Positions 1 through 34,785 of a DNA stretch of 34,908 bases are shown here, piece after piece. The notes below the pieces were generated by a model. It was not told where the DNA came from. It saw only the letters and a program-made list of their open reading frames with translations, and searched no databases. The stretch's first letter is position 1; each line of letters opens with the position of its first letter. The DNA comes from a virus, in the IMG/VR virus record IMGVR_UViG_3300046507_000309, positions 1-34,908 of that record. One strand, 5' to 3'. The position numbers and the translations under genes are program-made.

Positions 1-348
1 GAAGGGTTTGGTCTGCGCGGCGAGCATCGCAAGCCGCTGCTTTTGCTCGAACTCGGCGCGCTCTTCGGCGGTCATGTTCGGATGCTTGATGCGCTTCCGT
101 ACGCTCGGCGGCCGGCGCGGCGCTGGCGGCTGCGCATCCGGCGCTTTTCCGACCGCGTAATACCGCGTCTTACGCTTACGTGCGCTCGTGTCGTAACCGG
201 CGATTCGGATCCCCTTCTCGTACTTGCGGAAGGTGCCGATATGGAACGTCACGGTCTTCTCGCTGAAGCCCAACGCCGCAGCGATCTCGAAAACTGTCAT
301 CGGTCCGCGCTCGCGAAGCAGCCCGATGATTTCGTCGACACGTCTCAC
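1..348 (-). CDS. Putative winged-helix DNA-binding protein (3' part off the window)
   Basis: A GTG-initiated frame of 116 codons runs open to the left edge. Residues 5-50 (EIIGLLRERGPMTVFEIAAA and onward) have the shape of a winged helix-turn-helix: helix, turn, recognition helix around FSEKTVTFHI, then a short wing. A basic, proline-rich linker (PPAPRRPPSVRKR) and a charged helix follow. The GTG overlaps the TGA of the upstream gene, so translation is probably coupled. It is distal in the leftward early operon, so it could be an early regulator. No named family is recognised. The C-terminus is missing from the window. Confidence 0.7.
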   Translation of the reverse strand, partial: MRRVDEIIGLLRERGPMTVFEIAAALGFSEKTVTFHIGTFRKYEKGIRIAGYDTSARKRKTRYYAVGKAPDAQPPAPRRPPSVRKRIKHPNMTAEERAEFEQKQRLAMLAAQTKPF

Positions 349-1516: not shown

Positions 1517-1704
1517 TCTGTTACCGGAAACCAACGATGAGTGAAGGAACGAGTGCGGCGTGCTACGCGAGTGCTACGGGACAAAACTAAGACACGGACC
1601 GGCGCGCGCCGAGAAGCGCTTATCGGTGTGATAAATAGCTCGAGCAACAGCAAAAAATGTCGCCGCAGTACCACATTCGTTTGACGAAAGGTATCTGTTA
1701 CCGG
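1517..1704. repeat. Direct 11-bp repeat TCTGTTACCGG, two copies
   Basis: The 11-mer occurs at 1517-1527 and 1694-1704, both in the gene-free stretch between PL and the cI-operon terminator. No other feature in that stretch explains it. It could mark protein-binding sites or a decayed duplication. Confidence 0.4.
1560..1578. repeat. GTGCTACG pair, 11-bp period
   Basis: GTGCTACG occurs at 1560-1567 and 1571-1578. The same 8-mer with the same 11-bp period occurs next to the attachment region (28047-28054 and 28058-28065). One helical turn between copies suggests a protein binding one face of the helix. The integrase is the obvious candidate, but this pair is far from attP. Confidence 0.5.
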
Positions 1705-7706: not shown

Positions 7707-8030
7707 ATGCCGCGTCCTAAAGGGCTCCCGAAGACAGGTGGAAGAACGGCCGGAACGCCGAACCACGCCACGTCTGAGGTCAAGTCTCTCGCGCGTCAGC
7801 ACGGGGCCGACATGATCAAGGTATTAGCGAGCATCGCGAAGAACACGAAGAAGCCCGACGCTTCTCGTGTCGCTGCCGCCAAGGAATTGCTCGATCGCGG
7901 CTACGGCAAGTCAATTCAGGCCATCAGCGGGCCGGACGAAGGTCCGATCCAGCACCAGCACGAACACTCCTTCGCACAAGATCTGACCGACGATGAACTC
8001 GCCAATATCGTTGCACGAGGCAGCCGCTGA
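7707..8030 (+). CDS. Putative terminase small subunit
   Basis: This 107-residue protein has a basic N-terminus (PRPKGLPKTGGRTAGTPNHA) typical of small DNA-binding phage proteins next to TerL, then a helical region (SRVAAAKELLDRGYGKSI). It overlaps the large subunit start by 38 bases. In P22-like phages the small subunit recognises pac and starts headful packaging. The ATG at 7707 is preferred to a TTG six bases upstream. Assigned from position and the KELLDRGYGK-type segment; confidence is moderate. Confidence 0.7.
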   Translation: MPRPKGLPKTGGRTAGTPNHATSEVKSLARQHGADMIKVLASIAKNTKKPDASRVAAAKELLDRGYGKSIQAISGPDEGPIQHQHEHSFAQDLTDDELANIVARGSR

Positions 8031-9438
8031 GCTGCTCGCGCGTCGATCGGCGCGCCGCAGCTTGATCGACTTCACCACATACACGAAGCCTGACTTCGAG
8101 GTGGGCGAACACCACAGGATCATTGCATCCGAGCTTGAGGCCGTGGAGCGTGGTGAAGTCGATCGCCTGATGGTGTTCGCACCGCCGCGTCACACGAAGT
8201 CTGAGCTTTCGTCGCGCCGCTTCCCGGCGTGGTATCTCGGGCGGCATCCGAATCACCAGCTGATCTGCGCGACCTATTCGGGCGAGTTCGCGCTCGACTT
8301 TGGGCGCGACGTGCGCGGCATCGTGGCCGCGCCGCTCTTCCGCAACGTCTTCCCTGAAGTCTTCCTGCGCGGCGATTCGCGCGCGGCGAACGTCTGGCGC
8401 ACCTCGCACGGCGGGATCTCCGCTTACGTCGGCGTCGGCGGCGCTATCACGGGCCGCGGCGCGCACCTCGCGCTGATCGATGACCCGTTCAAGAATCGGG
8501 AGGAAGCGGACAGCGAGGTCCGCCGCGAGATGGTGTGGAAGTGGTATTCGTCGACGCTTCGCACGCGTCTGATGCCCGGCGGAAAGATCGTGCTCGTGCT
8601 CACGCGCTGGCATGAAGACGACCTCGCGGGCCGCATCCTCGCGAAGCAGGCGAAGCAGTGGCGCGTCGTCGAGTTGCAGGCCATCTCGAACGAGCACACG
8701 GACGAAGAAAAGGCGCTGTGGCCCGCGTGGTATCCGCTCGAGGAACTGCGCCGCGTGCGCGCCGACATCCTGCCGCGCGACTGGTCCGCGCTCTATCAGC
8801 AGAAGCCATCGCCCGACGAAGGCACGTACTTCCAGCGTAGCTGGATCAAGCACTGGGACGAGCTGCCGAAGAACCTCGCGCTCTACGGCACGAGCGATTA
8901 CGCCGTCACGGAAGGCGCGGGCGACTACACCGTGCATCGCGTCTGGGGCGTCGATCCGATCGGCGACATCTATCGCGTCGCGGGCTGGCGCGGTCAGACG
9001 ACCGCCGACACATGGATCGAGAAGAAGCTCGACCTGATGGAGAAGTATCGGCCGCTCGCGTGGTTCGGCGAAGCGGGCGTCATCCAGAAGACGATCGCGC
9101 CGATGCTCACGCGCCGCATGCGCGAGCGAAAAGTCTTCTGCCGCATGGAATGGGTGCCGAGCGTCACGAACAAGCCGACGCGCGCCCGCGGCATTCAGGC
9201 CCGCATGTCGATGGGAAAGGTCTGGTTTGAGCCAGGCGCGAACGTCGACGAGTTCCTCGCATTCCCGACAGGCAAGAACGATGACGACGTCGACACCGCG
9301 TCAATGCTCGGCATGGCGCTCGATGAAGCACACCCGGCAATCCTGCCGGCCAAGGAACAGCGGCCGGTCGAGCGTGATCGCTGGAACCGCGCATTCAACC
9401 GTCACGACGAGGACGACGAATCATGGAAGGTGGCGTAA
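7993..9438 (+). CDS. Terminase large subunit (TerL)
   Basis: The 481-residue packaging motor has an N-terminal ATPase and a C-terminal nuclease. A Walker A-like APPRHTKSE lies at about 63-71, Walker B LALIDDPFKN at 159-168, and the coupling motif LVLTRWHEDD at 201-210. The RNase H-like nuclease starts around GTSDYAVT (Asp302), with Glu360 (FGEAGV) and the Asp cluster at 431-434 (NDDDVD) as likely metal ligands. It cuts concatemers and pumps DNA into procapsids through the portal. Its length is normal for the family. The TAATG overlap couples it to the portal gene. Confidence 0.93.
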   Translation: MNSPISLHEAAAELLARRSARRSLIDFTTYTKPDFEVGEHHRIIASELEAVERGEVDRLMVFAPPRHTKSELSSRRFPAWYLGRHPNHQLICATYSGEFALDFGRDVRGIVAAPLFRNVFPEVFLRGDSRAANVWRTSHGGISAYVGVGGAITGRGAHLALIDDPFKNREEADSEVRREMVWKWYSSTLRTRLMPGGKIVLVLTRWHEDDLAGRILAKQAKQWRVVELQAISNEHTDEEKALWPAWYPLEELRRVRADILPRDWSALYQQKPSPDEGTYFQRSWIKHWDELPKNLALYGTSDYAVTEGAGDYTVHRVWGVDPIGDIYRVAGWRGQTTADTWIEKKLDLMEKYRPLAWFGEAGVIQKTIAPMLTRRMRERKVFCRMEWVPSVTNKPTRARGIQARMSMGKVWFEPGANVDEFLAFPTGKNDDDVDTASMLGMALDEAHPAILPAKEQRPVERDRWNRAFNRHDEDDESWKVA

Positions 9439-11429
9439 TGGCGCAGCCAGTTGCTGTCGTGGCCGAGGTGGACGTGATCGAGGCGCCCGATGCGTCGTTG
9501 CTCTGCCGCTGGTTCGAGGAAGCCGAGCAGATGACCGACGAGGCGCGCCGGTTGTCCGAGCGCGATCGCGACTACTACAACGGGCAGCAGTGGACCGAGA
9601 AGGAACTCGCCACGCTGCGCCGTCGCGGACAGCCGGCGCTGACGATCAACTACATCAAGCGCAAGGTCGAGTATCTGCGCGGCTTCGAGCGCCGCATGCG
9701 CAGCGATCCGAAGGCCTTCCCGCGCAATCCCGACGACGACCAGCTGAGCGAGGCCGCGACTGACGCTCTGCGGTTCGTCGCCGATCGCAACGACTTCGAC
9801 GTGATCCGCTCGGACGTCTACGAGGACATGCTCATCGAGGGAACCGGCGGCGTCGACGTGACCGTCGAGAACGGCTCGGACGGCCTGGAGGTCGTGCTCA
9901 CGCGCGTTCCATGGGATCGCATCTTCGCTGACCCGTACAGCCGTCAGAAAGACTACAGCGACGCGCGCTATCTGGGCGTCGTGATCTGGATGGACAAGGA
10001 CGAGGCGTTCGAGACGTTCCCCGGCTACGAGGATGCCATCGAGACGACGCTCGGCTCGACCTCGCTGAGCAACACCTACGACGACCGGCCGAAGTTCTCG
10101 ACGTGGAGCGACAACCGCCGCACGCGAGTGCGCGTGATCCAGATCCAGTTCAAGCACAAAGGCGTCTGGATGATCGCGACGGTGACGAAAGGCGGCTATC
10201 TGAGCGAGCCGATCCCCTCGCCGTACGTCGACCGTGAAGGCCAGCCCGCGTGCTCGCTGAAGCTGCGCAGCGCCTACGTCGACCGCGACAACAATCGCTA
10301 CGGCCACGCACGCGACATGATCAGTCTGCAGGACGAGGTGAACAAGCGCCGCTCGAAGGCGCTCCACCTGATGAGCGTGCGCCAGACCTACGGCAATCGT
10401 CAGGCCATCTCCGACGTCGACCGCGCGCGCCGCGAACTGGCGAAGCCGGATGGGCACATCGAGATCGAAGCCGCGGGCGAGTTCGGCAAGGACTTCGGCA
10501 TTCTGCCGACCGGCGACATGGCGCAATCGCAGATGGCGCTGCTCCAGCACGCGACGGGCGAACTGCAGGCGAGCGGGCCGAACGCCGCGATGGCCGGCAA
10601 AGATCCGCGTATTCAGTCGGGACGCGCCATCCAATCGCAGCAGGCCGGCGGTGCGATCGAGGTCGAGCCGATCATCGACGACCTTCGCCAATGGACGAAG
10701 CAGGTCTATGAGGCCGTGTGGCTTCGTGTGCGCCAGTTCTGGACGGGCGAAAAGTGGATTCGCGTCACCGACGACGAGAAGAACGCGAAGTGGGTCGGCC
10801 TGAATCAGCCCGTGACGCTCGGTCAGGCGCTCGGCGAGTTGCCGCCCGAGGAAGCCGCGCAGTACGCGCAGCAGATGGGCCTGCAGCCGGGCGATCCGCG
10901 TCTCGCGCAGATCGTACGCATGGACAACGACATCGCGGGCCTCGACGTCGACATCACGATCGATGAAGGCCCGGACGTGGCCAACGTGCAGGCCGAGCAA
11001 TTCCAGATGCTCTCGCAGCTCGCGCCGGCCATGGCGCAGGCGGGCACGCCGCTGCCGCCCGAGGTGCTCATCGAGGCTTCGCAGCTGCGCAACAAGGACA
11101 AGTTGCTGGAGATGCTCAAGCAGAAGCAGGAAGCCGCCGCACCGGTTCAGCAGCAGGCCGCGCAGCTTGGACAGGCGAAGGCCGAAGCCGACATCAACAA
11201 GACGAACGCCGACGCGCAGAAGAGCCAAGCGCAGGCCGCGAAGACGATGGCCGAGGCGCAGCAAGGCCCGACTCCGCAGGCGCCCGCGCAAGGCCCGTCG
11301 CAACTCGATCAGATGAAGCAGGCCGCCGAGATCCGCGCGCTCGACGCGAAGGCCGGCGACCTCCAGGCATCGGCGGTCAAGAAGATCGTCGAGGCGCAGC
11401 AGCCGCCCTCGCCTGCGATGTACGGATGA
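9438..11429 (+). CDS. Portal protein, P22-like
   Basis: The 663-residue protein matches the P22-type portal in size class and order. An early motif is DRDYYNGQQWTEKELATL; a central one is ARDMISLQDEVNKRRSKAL; a long helical, Gln/Ala-rich C-terminus (AQAAKTMAEAQQGPTPQAP) is the likely barrel or crown. The portal forms the dodecameric ring through which DNA enters and leaves. An in-frame ATG at 9423 exists, but the ATG at 9438 has GGAAGG seven bases upstream and overlaps the TerL stop. Confidence 0.9.
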   Translation: MAQPVAVVAEVDVIEAPDASLLCRWFEEAEQMTDEARRLSERDRDYYNGQQWTEKELATLRRRGQPALTINYIKRKVEYLRGFERRMRSDPKAFPRNPDDDQLSEAATDALRFVADRNDFDVIRSDVYEDMLIEGTGGVDVTVENGSDGLEVVLTRVPWDRIFADPYSRQKDYSDARYLGVVIWMDKDEAFETFPGYEDAIETTLGSTSLSNTYDDRPKFSTWSDNRRTRVRVIQIQFKHKGVWMIATVTKGGYLSEPIPSPYVDREGQPACSLKLRSAYVDRDNNRYGHARDMISLQDEVNKRRSKALHLMSVRQTYGNRQAISDVDRARRELAKPDGHIEIEAAGEFGKDFGILPTGDMAQSQMALLQHATGELQASGPNAAMAGKDPRIQSGRAIQSQQAGGAIEVEPIIDDLRQWTKQVYEAVWLRVRQFWTGEKWIRVTDDEKNAKWVGLNQPVTLGQALGELPPEEAAQYAQQMGLQPGDPRLAQIVRMDNDIAGLDVDITIDEGPDVANVQAEQFQMLSQLAPAMAQAGTPLPPEVLIEASQLRNKDKLLEMLKQKQEAAAPVQQQAAQLGQAKAEADINKTNADAQKSQAQAAKTMAEAQQGPTPQAPAQGPSQLDQMKQAAEIRALDAKAGDLQASAVKKIVEAQQPPSPAMYG

Positions 11430-11441
11430 GTTTCGTATTAC

Positions 11442-11493
11442 CTGCCGCCGGGGTTTCGGGCGTTATGACTGCCGCCGGGTCGAATCGGGCGTT
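11442..11493. repeat. Two-part direct repeat between portal and scaffold
   Basis: CTGCCGCCGGG occurs at 11442-11452 and 11469-11479, each followed about 15 bp later by TCGGGCGTT (11456-11464 and 11485-11493). It makes up most of the 79-bp gap. No promoter or terminator is evident. Confidence 0.5.
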
Positions 11494-11508
11494 TGTGAGG
11501 GGTAACAG

Positions 11509-12279
11509 ATGAACAGCTTGGACGATGTTCTTCGTGGAGAGCAGACCAATGAGGCTACCGCTAACGCTGCAGCTGACACGGTCGAGGCAAACCACACGGG
11601 CGAAACGCAGCAGACGGATGCAGCAGCAGGCGAAAGCCAAACGGCTGCTCCTGAAGCTGGAAACGATGCGCCGCCGGCATCCGAGCATGACAAGTTGGTT
11701 CCGCTGAAAGCCCTGGAGGAAGAGCGAAAAGGCCGTCAGGACTGGAAGGAAAAGGCGATCCGCTTCGAGGAAGAGCTGAAGCATCTGCGCGCGCAGAAGG
11801 AGCAACCGCCGGCTCAGGAAACCTCGCAGCAACAGCATCAGCCGGTCGAGATGGACTATCAAACCGCGCTGATCAATGAGCGGCTCAACACGTCCGAGAT
11901 GCTTCTGCGTTCGAAGCACGACGACGTCGACGAGAAGCTCGCCGTGTTCCAAGCAGAAGCCGCGAAGAACCCGGCATTGGGCGCTGAACTGCTCAAGCAA
12001 CGGCATCCGTACGAATGGATGTATCAGCAAGCGACGCGCATGCAAGCGCTCGCCTCGATCGGTGACGACCCGGTCGCGTATCGCGAAAAGATGCGCGCCG
12101 AGCTGCTCGCCGAGTTGCAAGGGCAGCAACAGACCCAGACCGCCGAAACCGTTCAGCAACCGACGCAAGCCGCCGCGCCCGTCCTTCCGAAATCTCTTGC
12201 AACCTCCCGATCCGCAGGCCCGCGCAGCGCGGCGACGTGGACGGGTCCGACCGCACTCAACGACATTCTCAAACGCTAA
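11509..12279 (+). CDS. Putative scaffolding protein
   Basis: The 256-residue protein lies between portal and coat, the scaffold position. It has an acidic, low-complexity N-terminus, a charged coiled-coil region (VPLKALEEERKGRQDWKEKA), a Gln-rich linker and a short basic C-terminus ending LNDILKR. Scaffolds direct coat assembly and leave the procapsid; the helical, charged make-up fits, and a basic C-terminal tail is the usual coat-binding part. It has a strong GAGGGG ribosome site. Family assigned by context. Confidence 0.75.
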   Translation: MNSLDDVLRGEQTNEATANAAADTVEANHTGETQQTDAAAGESQTAAPEAGNDAPPASEHDKLVPLKALEEERKGRQDWKEKAIRFEEELKHLRAQKEQPPAQETSQQQHQPVEMDYQTALINERLNTSEMLLRSKHDDVDEKLAVFQAEAAKNPALGAELLKQRHPYEWMYQQATRMQALASIGDDPVAYREKMRAELLAELQGQQQTQTAETVQQPTQAAAPVLPKSLATSRSAGPRSAATWTGPTALNDILKR

Positions 12280-12291
12280 GCGAGGCCACAA

Positions 12292-13434
12292 ATGGCAGAA
12301 AGCACCGTACGTCAGAGCCTTACACCGGCTCAATGGGATGACAAATTCTTCCGTGAGTATGTGCGCGAGAACTTCTTCTCGAAGTACATGGGCACGGATG
12401 AAGGCTCGATCATCCAGATCAACGAAGACTTGGCCCGCAAGGCCGGCGACCGCATCTCCTTCAACACCGTGCGCCAGCTGCGCGGCTCGGGCGTGGAAGG
12501 CAACGAGGTTCTCGAAGGCAACGAAGACGAGCTCGACGCTCGTGCGCTGTTCGTCATTGCCCGCGTGCTCCGTAACGCGGTGATGCTGACGAACTGGGAC
12601 GAGTCGAAGTCGGCTATCGACATGCGCGACGCGGCCAAGGGTGCCCTGAAGGATTGGGACACCTCGAAGATGCGCGACGACATCATCGCTGCGCTCCAGC
12701 AGGTCGCGGTCTATTCGAACGGCAAACCGCTCCCGTTCAACGTGGCGACCGCAACGCAGCGCAACGCATGGCTTGCGGCCAACGCTGACCGCGTGCTGTT
12801 CGGCAACTCGGTGAGTAACAACGTCGGCAACGACGCGGCTGCATCGATGGCGAACATCAATGCAACGACGGGCAAGCTGAGCATGGCGACCGTGACGCTT
12901 GCAAAGCGCCGCGCACGTCTGGCGGGCCGTGGCCTGAACACGAACGGCCTGCAGAACCCGACGATGGCTCCGTACCGCGTGAAGAACGGCGACGGCACCG
13001 AGTGGTACATGATGTGGGTCAACTCCCTTTCGTTCCGCGATCTGCAGATCGACATGCAGCAGGTCAATCGGGACGCCCGCGAACGCGACAGCAACGGCGC
13101 GTACACCAACCCGCTCTTCACCGGCGGCGACCTCGTCTATGACGGCGTGATCATCCGCGAGGTGCCGGAGCTCGACCAGTTCATGGCAACTGGCGCGAGC
13201 GGCGCACAGGTCGGCCAGTACTTCCTGTGCGGCGCGCAGGCGCTGGGCGTGGCCTGGGCGAAGCGTCCGAAGACCACGACCGACACCCGCGACTATGGCT
13301 TCCGCAACGGCGTCGGCATCGAAGAAGTTCGCGGCATCAACAAGCTCCAATTCGGCGTCGGTCCGGATGACAACGACACGCTCGTCGATGCGGGCGTGTT
13401 CACGGGCTTCGTCAGCGCCGCTGCAGACGCCTAA
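12292..13434 (+). CDS. Major capsid protein, P22/N4-gp56-type
   Basis: The 380-residue protein begins with a helical arm (SLTPAQWDDKFFREYVRENF) and has GTDEGSIIQINEDLARKAGD and the strongly conserved region RISFNTVRQLRGSGVEGNEV seen in the N4-gp56/P22-like coat group. The C-terminal half includes ISLG-fold-like strands and VGVGPDDNDT-type loops. It follows the scaffold by 12 bases with GAGG as ribosome site. It should be the most abundant virion protein. Confidence 0.88.
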   Translation: MAESTVRQSLTPAQWDDKFFREYVRENFFSKYMGTDEGSIIQINEDLARKAGDRISFNTVRQLRGSGVEGNEVLEGNEDELDARALFVIARVLRNAVMLTNWDESKSAIDMRDAAKGALKDWDTSKMRDDIIAALQQVAVYSNGKPLPFNVATATQRNAWLAANADRVLFGNSVSNNVGNDAAASMANINATTGKLSMATVTLAKRRARLAGRGLNTNGLQNPTMAPYRVKNGDGTEWYMMWVNSLSFRDLQIDMQQVNRDARERDSNGAYTNPLFTGGDLVYDGVIIREVPELDQFMATGASGAQVGQYFLCGAQALGVAWAKRPKTTTDTRDYGFRNGVGIEEVRGINKLQFGVGPDDNDTLVDAGVFTGFVSAAADA

Positions 13435-27069: not shown

Positions 27070-27996
27070 TTACACGTCCGTCAGATCAATATCGAATTGC
27101 CTGATCAGGCGCATGACAGCCATGTCATCGATCGGCTCTTCGAAGCCCACGCCGAGTTCAGGCGACGACGGCTGAAATTCATAGAGCGCGTGGTCGCCGT
27201 CCTCGCGCAGCATTTGCATCGAGTGACAGCCTGGTTGTTCAGTGGGCTCGCGCAGCTGCACGCAGATGAAAGCGCTGTTTTCCGTCATCGAGCGGATCTT
27301 GTCAGATAGCAGGGGGAAGGCTCTGACCGCGTTGTGCTTCGGGCGCAGAATCATAACGAAGAGCTTCGCGTCGGGCAGTTGCATCATCCGGCCGAAGCGA
27401 CCGACAGTATTCTGCAGATACCCGTAATCGTCAGGCGTCGACGGGTCGCGGTGCGCAAACATGTCGCCCACGCCGTCACGATCGCGATAGAAGGCGTGAT
27501 CCGCGCCCGGCTCCTTCGATTCCCGACGCTGCGTGATGGCGACGTAGTGCTTCGAATCGAGGAAGGTCGCGAACTGATCGTCGAGGCAGTGAAGGATCGT
27601 GGCCGGCGACGAAAAGAGCCAATCGAACGGCAATGAATACCGCTTCAGGCCGTGCTTCTTCAGCAGAAAGCTGGTCAGGCAATGCGTTCCGAGCGACACG
27701 ATATGCTTGACCTGCTGTCCGCCTACCAGCCGTTTGCCCGGTGGGCCGCTCACGCGCAGCGCGATCCCGGGCTCCTTCGCTACACGGTCCGCATATTCCC
27801 GGCTGGCCAGAAGGCTGCGCACCGCTTCCGCGATACCGTCGTCCCGCACGCCTGCTGTCAACAGCCGCCGATAGGCGACTGTGCCGCCCGGATCTGCGCG
27901 CCGTCCGAGAATGGCCCGGTAAAGCGCGTCGATGAGCGTGCGGTCCGCTTCGTCGCTTGCGTCGATGTTGGATTCGGGGAGGTTGAGAAGCTGCAT
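27070..27996 (-). CDS. Moron: DUF4214-like plus papain-like DUF1796-type protein
   Basis: The 308-residue protein has an N-terminal DUF4214-like segment (about 20-68; LIDALYRAILGRRADPGGTV, ending SLLASREY), known from S-layer and glycan-related proteins. From about 97 it follows the DUF1796 pattern, a putative papain-like cysteine peptidase fold: IVSLGTHC with Cys106, then SLPFDWLFS at 121-129, and His182 in MFAHRD. It lies alone, oriented against the late genes, between the lysis terminator and attP: a lysogenic-conversion position. The ATG at 27996 starts just before the conserved part; an upstream in-frame start at 28080 would add low-quality sequence. Surface or glycan modification is a guess; enzymatic activity is untested. 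Confidence 0.75.
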   Translation of the reverse strand: MQLLNLPESNIDASDEADRTLIDALYRAILGRRADPGGTVAYRRLLTAGVRDDGIAEAVRSLLASREYADRVAKEPGIALRVSGPPGKRLVGGQQVKHIVSLGTHCLTSFLLKKHGLKRYSLPFDWLFSSPATILHCLDDQFATFLDSKHYVAITQRRESKEPGADHAFYRDRDGVGDMFAHRDPSTPDDYGYLQNTVGRFGRMMQLPDAKLFVMILRPKHNAVRAFPLLSDKIRSMTENSAFICVQLREPTEQPGCHSMQMLREDGDHALYEFQPSSPELGVGFEEPIDDMAVMRLIRQFDIDLTDV

Positions 27997-28044
27997 GTCT
28001 GTTCTTGTTGGAGTTGTATGCCACGACGGCGCGCGGTCCAGTCG

Positions 28045-28304
28045 CGGTGCTACGACGGTGCTACGCGACCGTATGATCAATCGCGCCGTGCCTTTTGTGT
28101 TGGTTCTAAGGAGATTTTAGCCCGTCCAATCCATCATCGGTGCAACCGATACACGGCGAGGGCTTGTATTCATTGGGTTTCCGCGCCACGGCTTGGTTTG
28201 GCGCGCTTCAGAGAGTTGCATGATTCGATGCGGTTTTCGGCGTTTTCCGGTCGTTTCACAGCAAAGTGCTACGATGTAGGACCGAATTCTGGCCTGTAGC
28301 ACCG
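28045..28304. promoter_or_regulatory. Putative integrase arm sites around attP
   Basis: CGGTGCTACG occurs at 28045-28054 and 28056-28065, GTGCTACG at 28266-28273, and its inverse TGTAGCACCG at 28295-28304. The copies flank the dusA-like core on both sides at distances usual for arm-type sites of tyrosine recombinases. The right-hand copies lie just upstream of int, so bound integrase could also repress its own gene. Binding is inferred. Confidence 0.6.
28120..28173 (-). pseudogene. dusA: dusA 5' fragment carried in attP
   Basis: On the minus strand an ATG at 28173 opens a frame reading MNTSPRRVSVAPMMDWTG and then TAA. SVAPMMDWT (28123-28149) is the N-terminal signature of tRNA-dihydrouridine synthase A, whose next residues are normally DRHCR. 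Only 18 codons are present. dusA is an established insertion site for phages and islands, which carry its 5' end to restore the gene. The recombination core should lie in 28123-28149. The piece is therefore part of attP, not a decayed gene of this genome. Confidence 0.85.
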
Positions 28305-28311
28305 GGGAACG

Positions 28312-29382
28312 ATGGGAACGATATCGGCGCGAGAACGCAAGGACAAGAGTATAGGCTACACCGCCCAGATCCGTCTGAAGGACGGTGGGAAGGTCGTCTA
28401 CACCGAGTCGAAGACCTTCGACCGCCGCCAGGCGGCGCAGTCGTGGCTCGACAAGCGCGAACGAGAGCTGGCGCAGCCTGGCGCGCTGGAGTCGGCCGCG
28501 ACGGAAGATCCGACCCTTGCCGACGTCATCGACCGCTACGTGCGTGAGTCACGCAAAGAGGTCCAGGGAACCAAGAAACAGGTGCTACGCGCGATCCAAG
28601 GAGCACCGATCGGCGAGGTGCACTGTAGCCGGATTGTCAGTCATACCTATGTTCAGTTCGCGCAGAGCCTGAAGGTTAAACCTCAGACGGTCGAAAATTA
28701 CATGTCGCACCTGGCGGCCGTCGTCCACATCGCGCGGCCCGCGTGGGGCTATCCGCTCGACGAGAAGCAGCTCATCGACGCGCGCACGGTGCTGAAAAAG
28801 TTGGGCACGACCGGCAAGTCTCGGCACCGCGATCGCCGACCGACGTTTGACGAGCTCGACCGGCTGATGGAGCACTTCGGCCAGATCCGGAAGCGCCGCC
28901 CGAGCAGCGTGCCGATGCAGGCAATCACCGCGTTCGCGATCTTCTCGACGCGCCGGCTCGAGGAAATGCTGCGCATCACGCACGAGGATCTCGACGAGGC
29001 GCACAGCCGCGTGCTCGTGCGCGACCTGAAGCACCCTGGTCAGAAGATCGGCAACGACGTCTGGTGCGATCTGCCGCCCGAGGCGATGCGGATTATCAAG
29101 GCGCAGCCGACGAAAGCCGGTCGCATCTTCCCGTACTCATCAGACGCCGTCGGCGCGGCCTTCACGCGGGCATGTCAACTACTGGGGATTGGGGATTTGC
29201 ACCTGCATGATATGCGGCACGAGGGTGCCAGCAGGCTGTTCGAGATGGGCCTGACGATTCCGCACGTGGCGGCGGTCACAGGGCATCGAAGCTGGTCGAG
29301 CCTGAAGCGCTACACGCACCTCAGGCACACGGGGGACAGGTTTGAGGGGTGGCAGTGGCTCGATGTGATCGCGCCAATCTGA
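28312..29382 (+). CDS. int: Tyrosine recombinase integrase, dusA-targeting
   Basis: The 356-residue integrase has an arm-binding-like N-terminus (SIGYTAQIRLKDGGKVVYTE), a core-binding region (about 68-165) and a catalytic domain with Arg215 (FSTRRLEEM), Lys240, His299-x-x-Arg302 (HDMRHEG), His325 (GHRSW) and the nucleophile Tyr334 (RYTHL). It lies next to the dusA fragment, so its target is inferred to be dusA. GGGGAAC precedes the ATG. It is transcribed toward the interior of the leftward genes, unlike lambda int. All catalytic residues are present, so it should be active. Confidence 0.93.
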   Translation: MGTISARERKDKSIGYTAQIRLKDGGKVVYTESKTFDRRQAAQSWLDKRERELAQPGALESAATEDPTLADVIDRYVRESRKEVQGTKKQVLRAIQGAPIGEVHCSRIVSHTYVQFAQSLKVKPQTVENYMSHLAAVVHIARPAWGYPLDEKQLIDARTVLKKLGTTGKSRHRDRRPTFDELDRLMEHFGQIRKRRPSSVPMQAITAFAIFSTRRLEEMLRITHEDLDEAHSRVLVRDLKHPGQKIGNDVWCDLPPEAMRIIKAQPTKAGRIFPYSSDAVGAAFTRACQLLGIGDLHLHDMRHEGASRLFEMGLTIPHVAAVTGHRSWSSLKRYTHLRHTGDRFEGWQWLDVIAPI

Positions 29383-29409: not shown

Positions 29410-30108
29410 ATGGGTAAGAAGCCGGCTGCGTGCCCCCAATACGATGAAGCGCCGCTACACGACGTCTACTTGTTTGAACTGCACCGTCACTCAACTAACT
29501 TGGTGCGGAAACTGAACGATTTGTTCGAGCGCATGCCGATCCCTGCAGAGGGAATGGGGTTTATCGACCCCGATCCCGAGGCTCATTCGCTTATTACGTC
29601 GCTGCTTTCAGACGCAGCAAGCGCAAAAAATCTTCTTGCCGATTACAAGCGCAGAGATCTCAGCGGCCTTGAAAACGCTTATCGCGCGAAACGGACTGCT
29701 TTTCTACGAAGTGTCCTTGATGGTATCGATATTTCGACACTTCTGGACAAGTCCGTACGCAACAGCGTTGAGCATTTCGACGAGTATCTAGACAAGGCAA
29801 ACATTGCGTTCTCCAATAAATCGGGGAAGCGTGGATTCGGTCTTTACAATCTCGTGCTGAGTTCTTTAAAGGTTCTCGAAGCCATGGACACCTTCAATGG
29901 CACGGAAATTCATCCGCTGAAGATTTATGTAGCCGACCAACGGACCTATTACAACTTTGAGGCGAAGGTAGACCTTGGAGCCCTGCTTCAAGAAGCCCAA
30001 GCGATCGTCGCAAGAGTCGAAGCGCACATGAACTATCCCGATGCGCAGAGAGGAAAGGCTGGCGGCGGAATTATTCCCTTGGGGAATCACGCCGAACCGG
30101 CAAGCTGA
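29410..30108 (+). CDS. Putative HEPN-like protein with RNxxxH motif
   Basis: The 232-residue protein is mostly helical. R117-N-S-V-E-H122, in DKSVRNSVEHFDEYLD, is the RNxxxH motif of HEPN RNases, in the middle of a predicted four-helix region. HEPN proteins are common in toxin, abortive infection and other defence systems. No partner such as an MNT nucleotidyltransferase is adjacent. It has a GAGGAA ribosome site, follows int on the same strand by 27 bp, and its last 22 bases overlap the end of the convergent PrtN-like gene. Its base composition is visibly less GC-rich than its neighbours, suggesting separate acquisition. Function is inferred. Confidence 0.6.
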   Translation: MGKKPAACPQYDEAPLHDVYLFELHRHSTNLVRKLNDLFERMPIPAEGMGFIDPDPEAHSLITSLLSDAASAKNLLADYKRRDLSGLENAYRAKRTAFLRSVLDGIDISTLLDKSVRNSVEHFDEYLDKANIAFSNKSGKRGFGLYNLVLSSLKVLEAMDTFNGTEIHPLKIYVADQRTYYNFEAKVDLGALLQEAQAIVARVEAHMNYPDAQRGKAGGGIIPLGNHAEPAS

Positions 30109-30353
30109 TTGCACTCTTTGACAGCGGCCTTGCGGCGCTTGTCAATGTAATCGGCCAGGTCGGTCAAGTGAACGCCCTTTGCGCCCTTCTGCGACGTCTC
30201 CATCCGCACGAGCGGCAGCGTGATTTCCCCCGCGGAAATCTTGCGCAGCAGCGTCGGGACGGTGAGCGGCGCGAAGTAGTCGCGGCACACGGTTTCAATC
30301 GGGATGACGGCCGCCGCATTGTATTGGGCCATCAGGAGAAAGGTCGTATTCAT
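30087..30353 (-). CDS. PrtN-like regulator
   Basis: The 88-residue protein matches the pyocin activator PrtN family along its length: NTTFLLMAQYNAAAVIPIET, VCRDYF, then LVRMETSQKGAKGVHLTDLA and YIDKRR. PrtN activates pyocin genes in Pseudomonas; phage members near int probably act in excision or early control. It lies at the distal end of the leftward genes, next to the AlpA-like gene. Start at the ATG at 30353. Confidence 0.85.
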   Translation of the reverse strand: MNTTFLLMAQYNAAAVIPIETVCRDYFAPLTVPTLLRKISAGEITLPLVRMETSQKGAKGVHLTDLADYIDKRRKAAVKECNQLAGSA

Positions 30354-30380: not shown

Positions 30381-30599
30381 TCAATTATGTGCTGCGCTGT
30401 GGTTTTCATCTTTCGGTGTCGAAGCCGCGATGAGTTTGTCGATGCTCTCGGCCGTAATGCGCGGGGAGCGCTCGCCGATTTTCACGAGGCAGAGCTTCCC
30501 GGCTTCGGCCATCCGATAGACCGTCGCGCGCGAGACGCCGAGCTGCGCCATCACGGCGCTGATGCGGTACAGCTTCGGGGGCGTGGTGGTCGTCTTCAT
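30381..30599 (-). CDS. AlpA/excisionase-like HTH protein
   Basis: The 72-residue protein has a MerR/AlpA-type HTH: LYRISAVMAQLGVSRATVYR, MAEAGKLCLVKIGERSPRIT. Such proteins bend DNA as excisionases or activate int. The ATG at 30599 is preferred to upstream in-frame ATGs because AGAGGA lies just before it. With the PrtN-like gene it forms the likely excision control pair. Confidence 0.8.
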   Translation of the reverse strand: MKTTTTPPKLYRISAVMAQLGVSRATVYRMAEAGKLCLVKIGERSPRITAESIDKLIAASTPKDENHSAAHN

Positions 30600-30614
30600 T
30601 TCGTCCTCTCTCAT

Positions 30615-30635
30615 AAAAAGCGCGCCGTGGCGCTT
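30615..30635 (-). terminator. Leftward intrinsic terminator before the AlpA-like gene
   Basis: AAGCGC (30618-30623) pairs with GCGCTT (30630-30635) around a six-base loop. Read leftward, a run of T follows (30615-30619). It would stop leftward transcription before the excision genes unless polymerase is antiterminated. The stem is short, so strength is uncertain. Confidence 0.5.
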
Positions 30636-30715
30636 ACGAATTGTTCGGTGCATTTTGGCGGTCTAAAGCTGGCCCGCGCGTTGCTGAAATGCAGTCAAGG
30701 TCGTAGGAGACAGCC

Positions 30716-30940
30716 ATGAGCTACGGAAACCCTCACGAACTGCTCGAACTCGTTTCAAGCGCGCTGCCGCCGCGAAACGAACTGGGCCACACAGGGCAAG
30801 AGGACTTCGAATACTTCTGCGCATACACCGGCCTCCGGAAGGAGAACGTCGGGGCCGATGCGTTCGCATGGGCGAAGCTCGCCTTTCTGTCCGCGTGGAG
30901 ACGTCGAACTGATGCCCTTGCCGAGCATTCAATGCAGTGA
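30716..30940 (+). CDS. Small protein upstream of ligase
   Basis: A 74-residue helical protein (NPHELLELVSSALPPRNELG, then FAWAKLAFLSAWRR) starts after a strong AGGAG. It overlaps the ligase start by 29 bases. Opposite in strand to the genes on both sides of this three-gene block. No family recognised. Confidence 0.65.
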   Translation: MSYGNPHELLELVSSALPPRNELGHTGQEDFEYFCAYTGLRKENVGADAFAWAKLAFLSAWRRRTDALAEHSMQ

Positions 30941-31553
30941 CTTGATGCTCGCCACGCTCGGGAAGCGCCCGTTCAAAGATGCGAACTGGATCTTTGAACT
31001 GAAGTACGACGGATACCGTTGCCTCGTGCGCAAGTCGGGCAGCCTGGTCGAACTCTTGAGCCGAAACTGCAATGAGCTGGGCGGCTCGTTTCCCGACGTG
31101 GTTGCGGCGGTCGCGAGCATCCCGGGCGATTTCGTGCTCGACGCTGAGTTGACCGTCGACGAGCCAAACGGCCGGTCGTCGTTCGAATGGCTGCGCCGCC
31201 GCGCTGTCACGAAGACGGCCGGCGCCGTGCGAGCTGCGGCAGCCCGCCACCCCGCGCGGCTCTATTTCTTTGACGCGCTCTGCATCGGCGACGAAGATCT
31301 CCGTTGCCTGCCGCTCGACGAGCGAAAGCGATACCTGCGCGACCTGTTCGACGATACGAAGACGATGATCGTCGCCACGGGCATAGTCGGCGAAGGCCGA
31401 TGGGTGTTCGAGCAAGCTGCGGCGCATGATCTGGAAGGGATGGTCGCCAAGCGGCTCGACGCGCCCTATCAGCGCGGCCGATCTCGCGATTGGATCAAGG
31501 TCAAGAACCCGGATTACAGCCGCCGCGAGGCGCTCGCATGGGGTAAGAGTTAG
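30912..31553 (+). CDS. ATP-dependent DNA ligase, adenylation domain only
   Basis: The 213-residue protein has the nucleotidyltransferase motifs of ATP-dependent ligases: motif I ELKYDGYR with Lys31 as AMP acceptor, LLSRNCNEL (motif Ia/II region), VLDAELTVD at 75-83 (motif III region), LEGMVAKR at 174-181 (motif IV) and WIKVK at 194-198 (motif V). It ends about 15 residues later, so the OB-fold domain of typical ligases is absent. It could seal nicks as a minimal enzyme or need a partner. The ATG at 30912 puts motif I at the usual distance; an upstream frame to 30858 overlaps the previous gene. Confidence 0.82.
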   Translation: MPLPSIQCSDLMLATLGKRPFKDANWIFELKYDGYRCLVRKSGSLVELLSRNCNELGGSFPDVVAAVASIPGDFVLDAELTVDEPNGRSSFEWLRRRAVTKTAGAVRAAAARHPARLYFFDALCIGDEDLRCLPLDERKRYLRDLFDDTKTMIVATGIVGEGRWVFEQAAAHDLEGMVAKRLDAPYQRGRSRDWIKVKNPDYSRREALAWGKS

Positions 31554-34596: not shown

Positions 34597-34785
34597 TTAC
34601 TGCGGACGCTTCGGCAGGCGTGCGTCGATGGCGCGGATTCGTGCGATGACGCGCGCCGGCAGGGAAATCACCGGCGCGCCGTCGAGTGCGGCAAAGGCCG
34701 GGCGCAGCATTTCGCGATCAGCGGCGGACATTTGAGCATCGCGGATGCGGCGCAGGGCTTGATACAGGGGACTCTCGACGGTCAC
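34597..34785 (-). CDS. Small helical protein
   Basis: A 62-residue GTG-started protein (SPLYQALRRIRDAQMSAADR, ending RAIDARLPKRPQ) overlaps the stop of the gene at 34889. Basic C-terminus. Function unknown. Confidence 0.55.
   Translation of the reverse strand: MTVESPLYQALRRIRDAQMSAADREMLRPAFAALDGAPVISLPARVIARIRAIDARLPKRPQ

Follow-up and report, generated by a model that had tools for sequence, protein, structure and literature searches.

Integration at the 5′ end of dusA is widespread in Proteobacteria, reported from more than 200 genomes in the survey by Farrugia et al. (2015, PMC4482086), which also lists the integrases of Burkholderia phages AH2, BcepIL02, BcepMigl and DC1, and of Pseudomonas phage H66. 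In a Vibrio island inserted at this target, experiments have shown that the new 5′ end brought by the element supplies a promoter and restores the reading frame, and the directionality factor RdfN is a PrtN-type protein (Durand et al. 2021, PMC8409611); factors of this type are common but not universal among dusA elements. The DNA analysed here, referred to as the window, is the whole 34,908-nucleotide stretch of IMG/VR record IMGVR_UViG_3300046507_000309. Its positions 28045-28304 are the attachment site (attP) of a temperate phage of a soil bacterium with a dusA-associated tyrosine integrase (DAI family), and the integrases of the five phages named above are relatives of this integrase. A lambda-type attP for dusA, with five arm sites and excision driven by RdfN, is very probably the best joint explanation of the data presented below.

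Anatomy of the attachment site and its surroundings

The phage carries a replacement 5′ end of dusA, which can be read directly at 28117-28173 on the minus strand as MNTSPRRVSVAPMMDWTG followed by a stop. From 28173 down to 28117 the codons are ATG AAT ACA AGC CCT CGC CGT GTA TCG GTT GCA CCG ATG ATG GAT TGG ACG GGC TAA, with the TAA stop of this 18-codon frame at 28119-28117. The DusA signature SVAPMMDWT, noticed in the initial annotation, lies inside the frame at 28149-28123 (minus strand), and the accompanying remark that there are only 18 codons with phage genes on both sides also holds, since the integrase gene (28312-29382, plus strand) is found on one side and a DUF1796 gene (27070-27996, minus strand; PF08795, E 3e-11) at the late end of the genome on the other. 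The integrase gene starts at 28312, which is 139 bp beyond the start of the dusA piece, and runs in the opposite direction. The DUF1796 product is a putative papain-like cysteine peptidase, and its gene is a possible moron between the late genes and attP.

The integrase is a protein of 356 amino acids (PF00589, E 1.7e-15) with the catalytic residues R214, K240, H299, R302, H325 and Y334, and this R-K-H-R-H-Y set is invariant in the alignment of relatives. Its structural model has a mean pLDDT of 89, and the closest solved structure is lambda Int (Z 17.7 over 250 residues, rmsd 2.9). The segment encoded by 28312-28491 (plus strand) forms an N-terminal domain that is presumed to bind the arms, and which AlphaFold models as a three-stranded sheet with a helix. 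Among the structural matches listed for this N-domain model there was no solved arm-binding domain, and folds resembling double-stranded-RNA-binding domains reached a Z score of 5.9.

Beyond the integrase gene lies a minus-strand gene for a PrtN/RdfN-type protein of 88 amino acids (30087-30353; PF11112, 99 bits against a cut-off of 24.2), a candidate recombination directionality factor, and next to it a minus-strand gene for a small HTH_17/AlpA-like protein (30381-30653; PF12728, 32 bits against a cut-off of 27), which may be a second excision factor or a regulator. These two genes end a minus-strand run that begins near a cI-like gene (2096-2845) and that, given a circular genome, would continue across both contig ends, an arrangement resembling that of lambda. 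When the contig ends are joined, open frames continue, yet there is no terminal overlap. A winged-helix-like frame (1-348, minus strand) runs off the left contig end and, together with a frame at 34597-34785 (minus strand), hints at a cut circle. A gene with an ATP-dependent DNA ligase domain (30858-31553, plus strand) stands on the opposite strand within the minus-strand left-operon region. The closest annotated phage DNA to the terminase, portal and head region (7993-13434, plus strand) is that of the cyanobacterial phages Pan3, Pam1 and Pam5, with 66-70% identity over part of the region.

Integration into dusA

The initial annotation had proposed dusA as the integration target, and had named related prophages at another locus as an observation that would speak against it. 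Among the 80 nearest relatives in bacterial genomes, retrieved with the integrase as query and checked on this point, 74 have the integrase gene head-to-head with an in-frame dusA remainder that stays open for at least 250 codons, indicating that this phage family targets dusA. In 68 of the 80, the SVAPMMDWT frame itself, head-to-head with the integrase, leads into an open frame that exceeds 250 codons, and six further relatives show the same fusion with the variant residues SIAPMMDWT, AIAPMMDWT or AVAPMIDWT. Of the remaining six, two are cut by a contig end, three possess the core but no intact dusA, and the last has no identifiable core; a convincing dusA remainder was not found in four of the 80 (L053, L062, L072 and L076). 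The nearest relative, in Paraburkholderia tuberum (L002, 88% integrase identity), is fused to dusA and reads MNSSPRRISVAPMMDWTDRHCRSL.

The suggested search of host genomes for attL and attR recovered such pairs, with the core repeated in direct orientation. A second core, oriented like the first, marks the far end of the elements, in most cases at a distance of 20-55 kb within one contig. It is preceded by a different (host) N-terminus and soon followed by a stop, and this is where the original dusA 5′ end lies. Core repeats at both ends were read in 45 integrated relatives, including a minority with the far end on another contig that were paired by deduction, and the same core, GTTGCACCGATGATGGATTGGACG, is present in the window at 28123-28146 (minus strand). 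The attL and attR copies, found with a search pattern that itself required ATGATGGA, are identical within ATGATGGA and differ on both sides of it, which places the exchange inside this shared stretch. This placement agrees with the core repeats that Farrugia et al. (2015, PMC4482086) mapped. The evidence for the attB side comes from the genomes of the relatives.

The element supplies an in-frame dusA 5′ end, and the corresponding frame, MNTSPRRVSVAPMMDWT, is present in attP. In the 68 integrated relatives, the residues of the phage-supplied codons R-R-F/V-S-V-A-P are kept and the third positions are free, as expected if this piece is translated within DusA and is not kept merely as DNA sites. 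A consensus scan of 28000-28330 for a sigma-70-like promoter found none, so that we infer a replacement promoter for dusA solely from published work.

Candidate arm sites and their relation to the integrase

Five candidate arm sites flank the core in the window. The left (P) arm holds two exact copies of CGGTGCTAC on the plus strand, site 1 at 28056-28064 (+82 from the core, the position of the left arm in relatives) and site 2 at 28045-28053 (+93 from the core on the dusA strand, and 11 bp from its neighbour). In the right (P′) arm, site 1 is again an exact CGGTGCTAC (28296-28304, minus strand), site 3 is AAGTGCTAC (28264-28272, plus strand), and between them lies site 2, a degenerate CGGTCCTAC, also read as GTAGGACCG (28276-28284, minus strand, inverted relative to site 3), with an exact copy at the same position in three relatives (L004, L005 and L006). 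The initial annotation was right on the site, the dusA target and the arm repeats, the last judged by position and sequence comparison. It counted four motif copies, of which two on the left with an 11-bp period and two on the right, one of them inverted, were found again as exact GTGCTAC, in direct orientation at 28047, 28058 and 28266 and inverted at 28296; it overlooked the degenerate fifth copy. GTGCTAC occurs seven times in the window against 1.6 expected, the copy at 28582 lying within the integrase gene, and a pair with 11-bp spacing is found twice, compared to none in 100 shuffles.

Both arms could be read in 50 elements, namely 45 integrated relatives, the window, and four other phages or contigs in unintegrated form; phages AH2, BcepIL02, CSP3 and RHph_Y3_1, which are without the exact core pattern, were left out of this analysis. 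With words called by a finder of fixed geometry, the integrase side shows a pair of direct words with a spacing of 20-21 bp and a third word in inverted orientation. These lie at approximately −158, −137 and −127 from the core, except in one Pseudomonas group, where they are shifted outwards by about ten bases. The far side shows two words 11 bp apart at approximately +80 and +91. The words themselves differ by lineage, with CGGTGCTAC in the window and TTGCTACA, NTGGTACA, GTGCTAAA, GTGGTAAA, GTGCTCC and TACAGCA elsewhere. GTGCTAC is found in Burkholderiaceae and one Stutzerimonas, TTGCTAC or NTGGTAC in Pseudomonas, GTGGTAA in phage Haddon, GTGCTCC in phage AS1, TACAGCA in Methylobacterium, and GTGCTAA or TTGCTAA in others. 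In the complete genome of phage Haddon the word occurs five times, all in attP.

Across the 50 elements the word switches in concert on both arms. When the right-arm word of each element was scanned over both strands of the 130-bp left region, the best match was inverted and located at +69 to +91 in 49 of the 50. The right and left words of the same element agreed at 7.9 of 9 positions, whereas permuted pairs gave 6.96 and, in 20,000 permutations that ignore relatedness, never more than 7.34. Word-class changes on the integrase tree numbered eight, with a possible minimum of seven. Such concerted words on two arms that cluster on the integrase tree are expected from one protein that reads both arms and is inherited with the element. 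Judged by this layout and concerted sequence change, the candidate arm sites look real.

The word also covaries with residues 5 and 14 of the integrase N-terminal domain, which supports the presumed role of this domain in arm binding. Among the 117 loci whose words are clear, every one of the 59 TGGTA elements of the beta/gamma clade has Arg at residue 5 and none of the 57 intact TGCTA ones does; the latter have Thr, Ser, Val or Ala there. L042, considered as an exception with Arg5 in a TGCTA element, was rejected as its reading is frameshifted. On a tree built without the N-terminal domain, word and residue 5 each need four changes; in independent pairs the two agree in all cases, with four switches, two of them on well-supported (starred) branches, numbers that are too few for significance. 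A telling element (L067), which falls among the TGCTA integrases (best tree, support 94/84, not starred), keeps Gly2 and has Arg5 together with three perfect TGTACCAAC sites. Ile14-Gly15 goes with an outer C in the word, which is C in 25 such cases and A in one. Four alpha-proteobacterial elements (L088, L294, L311 and L312) have GTACC-containing words without Arg5, and since the register of their words cannot be aligned, the rule is claimed for the beta/gamma clade only.

A left-arm-like pair without a core, GTGCTACNNNNGTGCTAC, is located at 1560-1577 (plus strand) and is the same 11-bp pair as in the left arm. It lies approximately 130 bp upstream of a good minus-strand promoter match (1428-1401), the predicted promoter of the left operon. 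No such pair outside attP was found in Haddon, AS1, G077 and G080, and a comparison of the 1560 region with 12 related genomes or contigs yielded only short matches, some 30 bp long, most of which fall in a terminator-like sequence close to 1750, so that the pair is without comparative support. The pair may serve the integrase as a binding site for control of the left operon, or be a stray piece of attP.

The same words could in principle be read as operators for a transcription factor, or for RdfN or the HTH proteins, that controls int and its neighbours. The palindrome formed by right-arm sites 2 and 3 just upstream of int would fit such a role, as would the coreless pair upstream of the predicted left-operon promoter. 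However, the sites flank the core at near-fixed distances, with two on the side away from int, the word follows the phylogeny of the integrase and changes together with residues of its N-domain, and there is no exact copy of the word at the repressor/cII region, which makes operators decidedly unlikely. It is also very hard to believe that the dusA piece is a degraded remnant of a host gene in a defective element. Its 18 codons and the degenerate right-arm site might be taken as signs of decay, but this short piece, closed by a stop shortly past the core, also occurs in attP of E220, AS1 and G080 and on the phage side of integrated elements, and the catalytic residues of the integrase are intact.

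The initial annotation had taken the sequence to be in the unintegrated arrangement, and this agrees with the integrase gene adjoining the late-gene end and with the 34.9 kb, in which no host DNA or host genes were recognised, although the junction in a tandem prophage array would look identical. The contig could be the inner junction of two tandem dusA prophages, and its attP-like site a hybrid of neighbouring elements. Pseudomonas sp. LD120 (L062, G060:C5 2366715-2466707) provides a precedent, with three dusA cores in a single stretch of the chromosome and an attP-like junction beside an integrase gene, apparently from two elements in tandem. Against this, the gene order across the junction in the window is that of one phage, with late genes, attP, int and then the excision end of the left operon, and we consider a tandem origin unlikely. 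The reading of 28045-28304 as the attP of a single phage is followed below.

Proposed mechanism and comparison with known systems

The integrase would join the phage core (the ATGATGGA region within 28123-28146) to the matching codons close to the beginning of the host dusA. After integration, the phage stretch between integrase and core would give dusA a new start codon and N-terminus (MNTSPRRVSVAPMMD...), and presumably a promoter too, and the original dusA start would be left behind at the far end of the prophage. The N-terminal domain of the integrase presumably binds the five arm sites directly, two on the left and three on the right, with the other two domains at the core. Since 8 bp separate the end of the right arm from the start of the integrase gene, binding to this arm may also repress that gene. 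In this phage, the PrtN-type factor (RdfN) encoded nearby would drive excision.

For dusA integrases more generally, we propose one fixed scaffold of three right and two left sites, with lineage-specific words read through an N-terminal code in which Arg5 corresponds to TGGTA, Thr, Ser, Val or Ala at position 5 to TGCTA, and residue 14 (Ile-Gly-Tyr versus Thr-Ala-Tyr) to the outer base; the phage may also place the word near the left-operon promoter, so that the integrase influences its own excision operon. We give this proposal about an even chance of being correct. If the layout is fixed and the words can be exchanged, this could explain how members of the family share one chromosomal target without cross-reaction on the arms of others, and the residue-to-base rule offers a testable handle on the arm specificity of tyrosine integrases.

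No description of the arm sites of dusA elements was found in the literature searched, nor one of a fixed arm scaffold whose words switch or of the association with residue 5. The attP itself belongs to the known DAI kind. As in the elements described by Farrugia et al. (2015, PMC4482086), the 5′ end of the integrase gene faces the 5′ end of dusA, a replacement 5′ end is supplied, and the core repeats are semiconserved. Whereas that survey covers core sequences and N-terminus replacement, both arms are mapped here and vary with the integrase, and this two-arm architecture and the covariation of arm word and integrase residues are new. The window shares with IMEVchUSA3 (Durand et al. 2021, PMC8409611) the dusA target and a PrtN-like protein, RdfN in the island and the PF11112 protein here. 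IMEVchUSA3, for which the new promoter and N-terminus were shown experimentally, is a conjugation-mobilised Vibrio island with an rdfN controlled by AcaCD, whereas the window is a phage in which the rdfN-like gene lies on the int side of attP, convergent with int, and which encodes an additional HTH_17 protein.

The window's integrase has core-binding and catalytic domains with the fold of lambda Int (Z 17.7). In lambda, too, arm words recur to either side of the core, and its left operon ends in an excision factor gene convergent with int, as in the window. The arm words, their numbers and their spacing differ between the two, and whereas lambda integrates at an intergenic target and uses Xis, this phage targets the 5′ end of a protein gene and has a PrtN-like candidate directionality factor.
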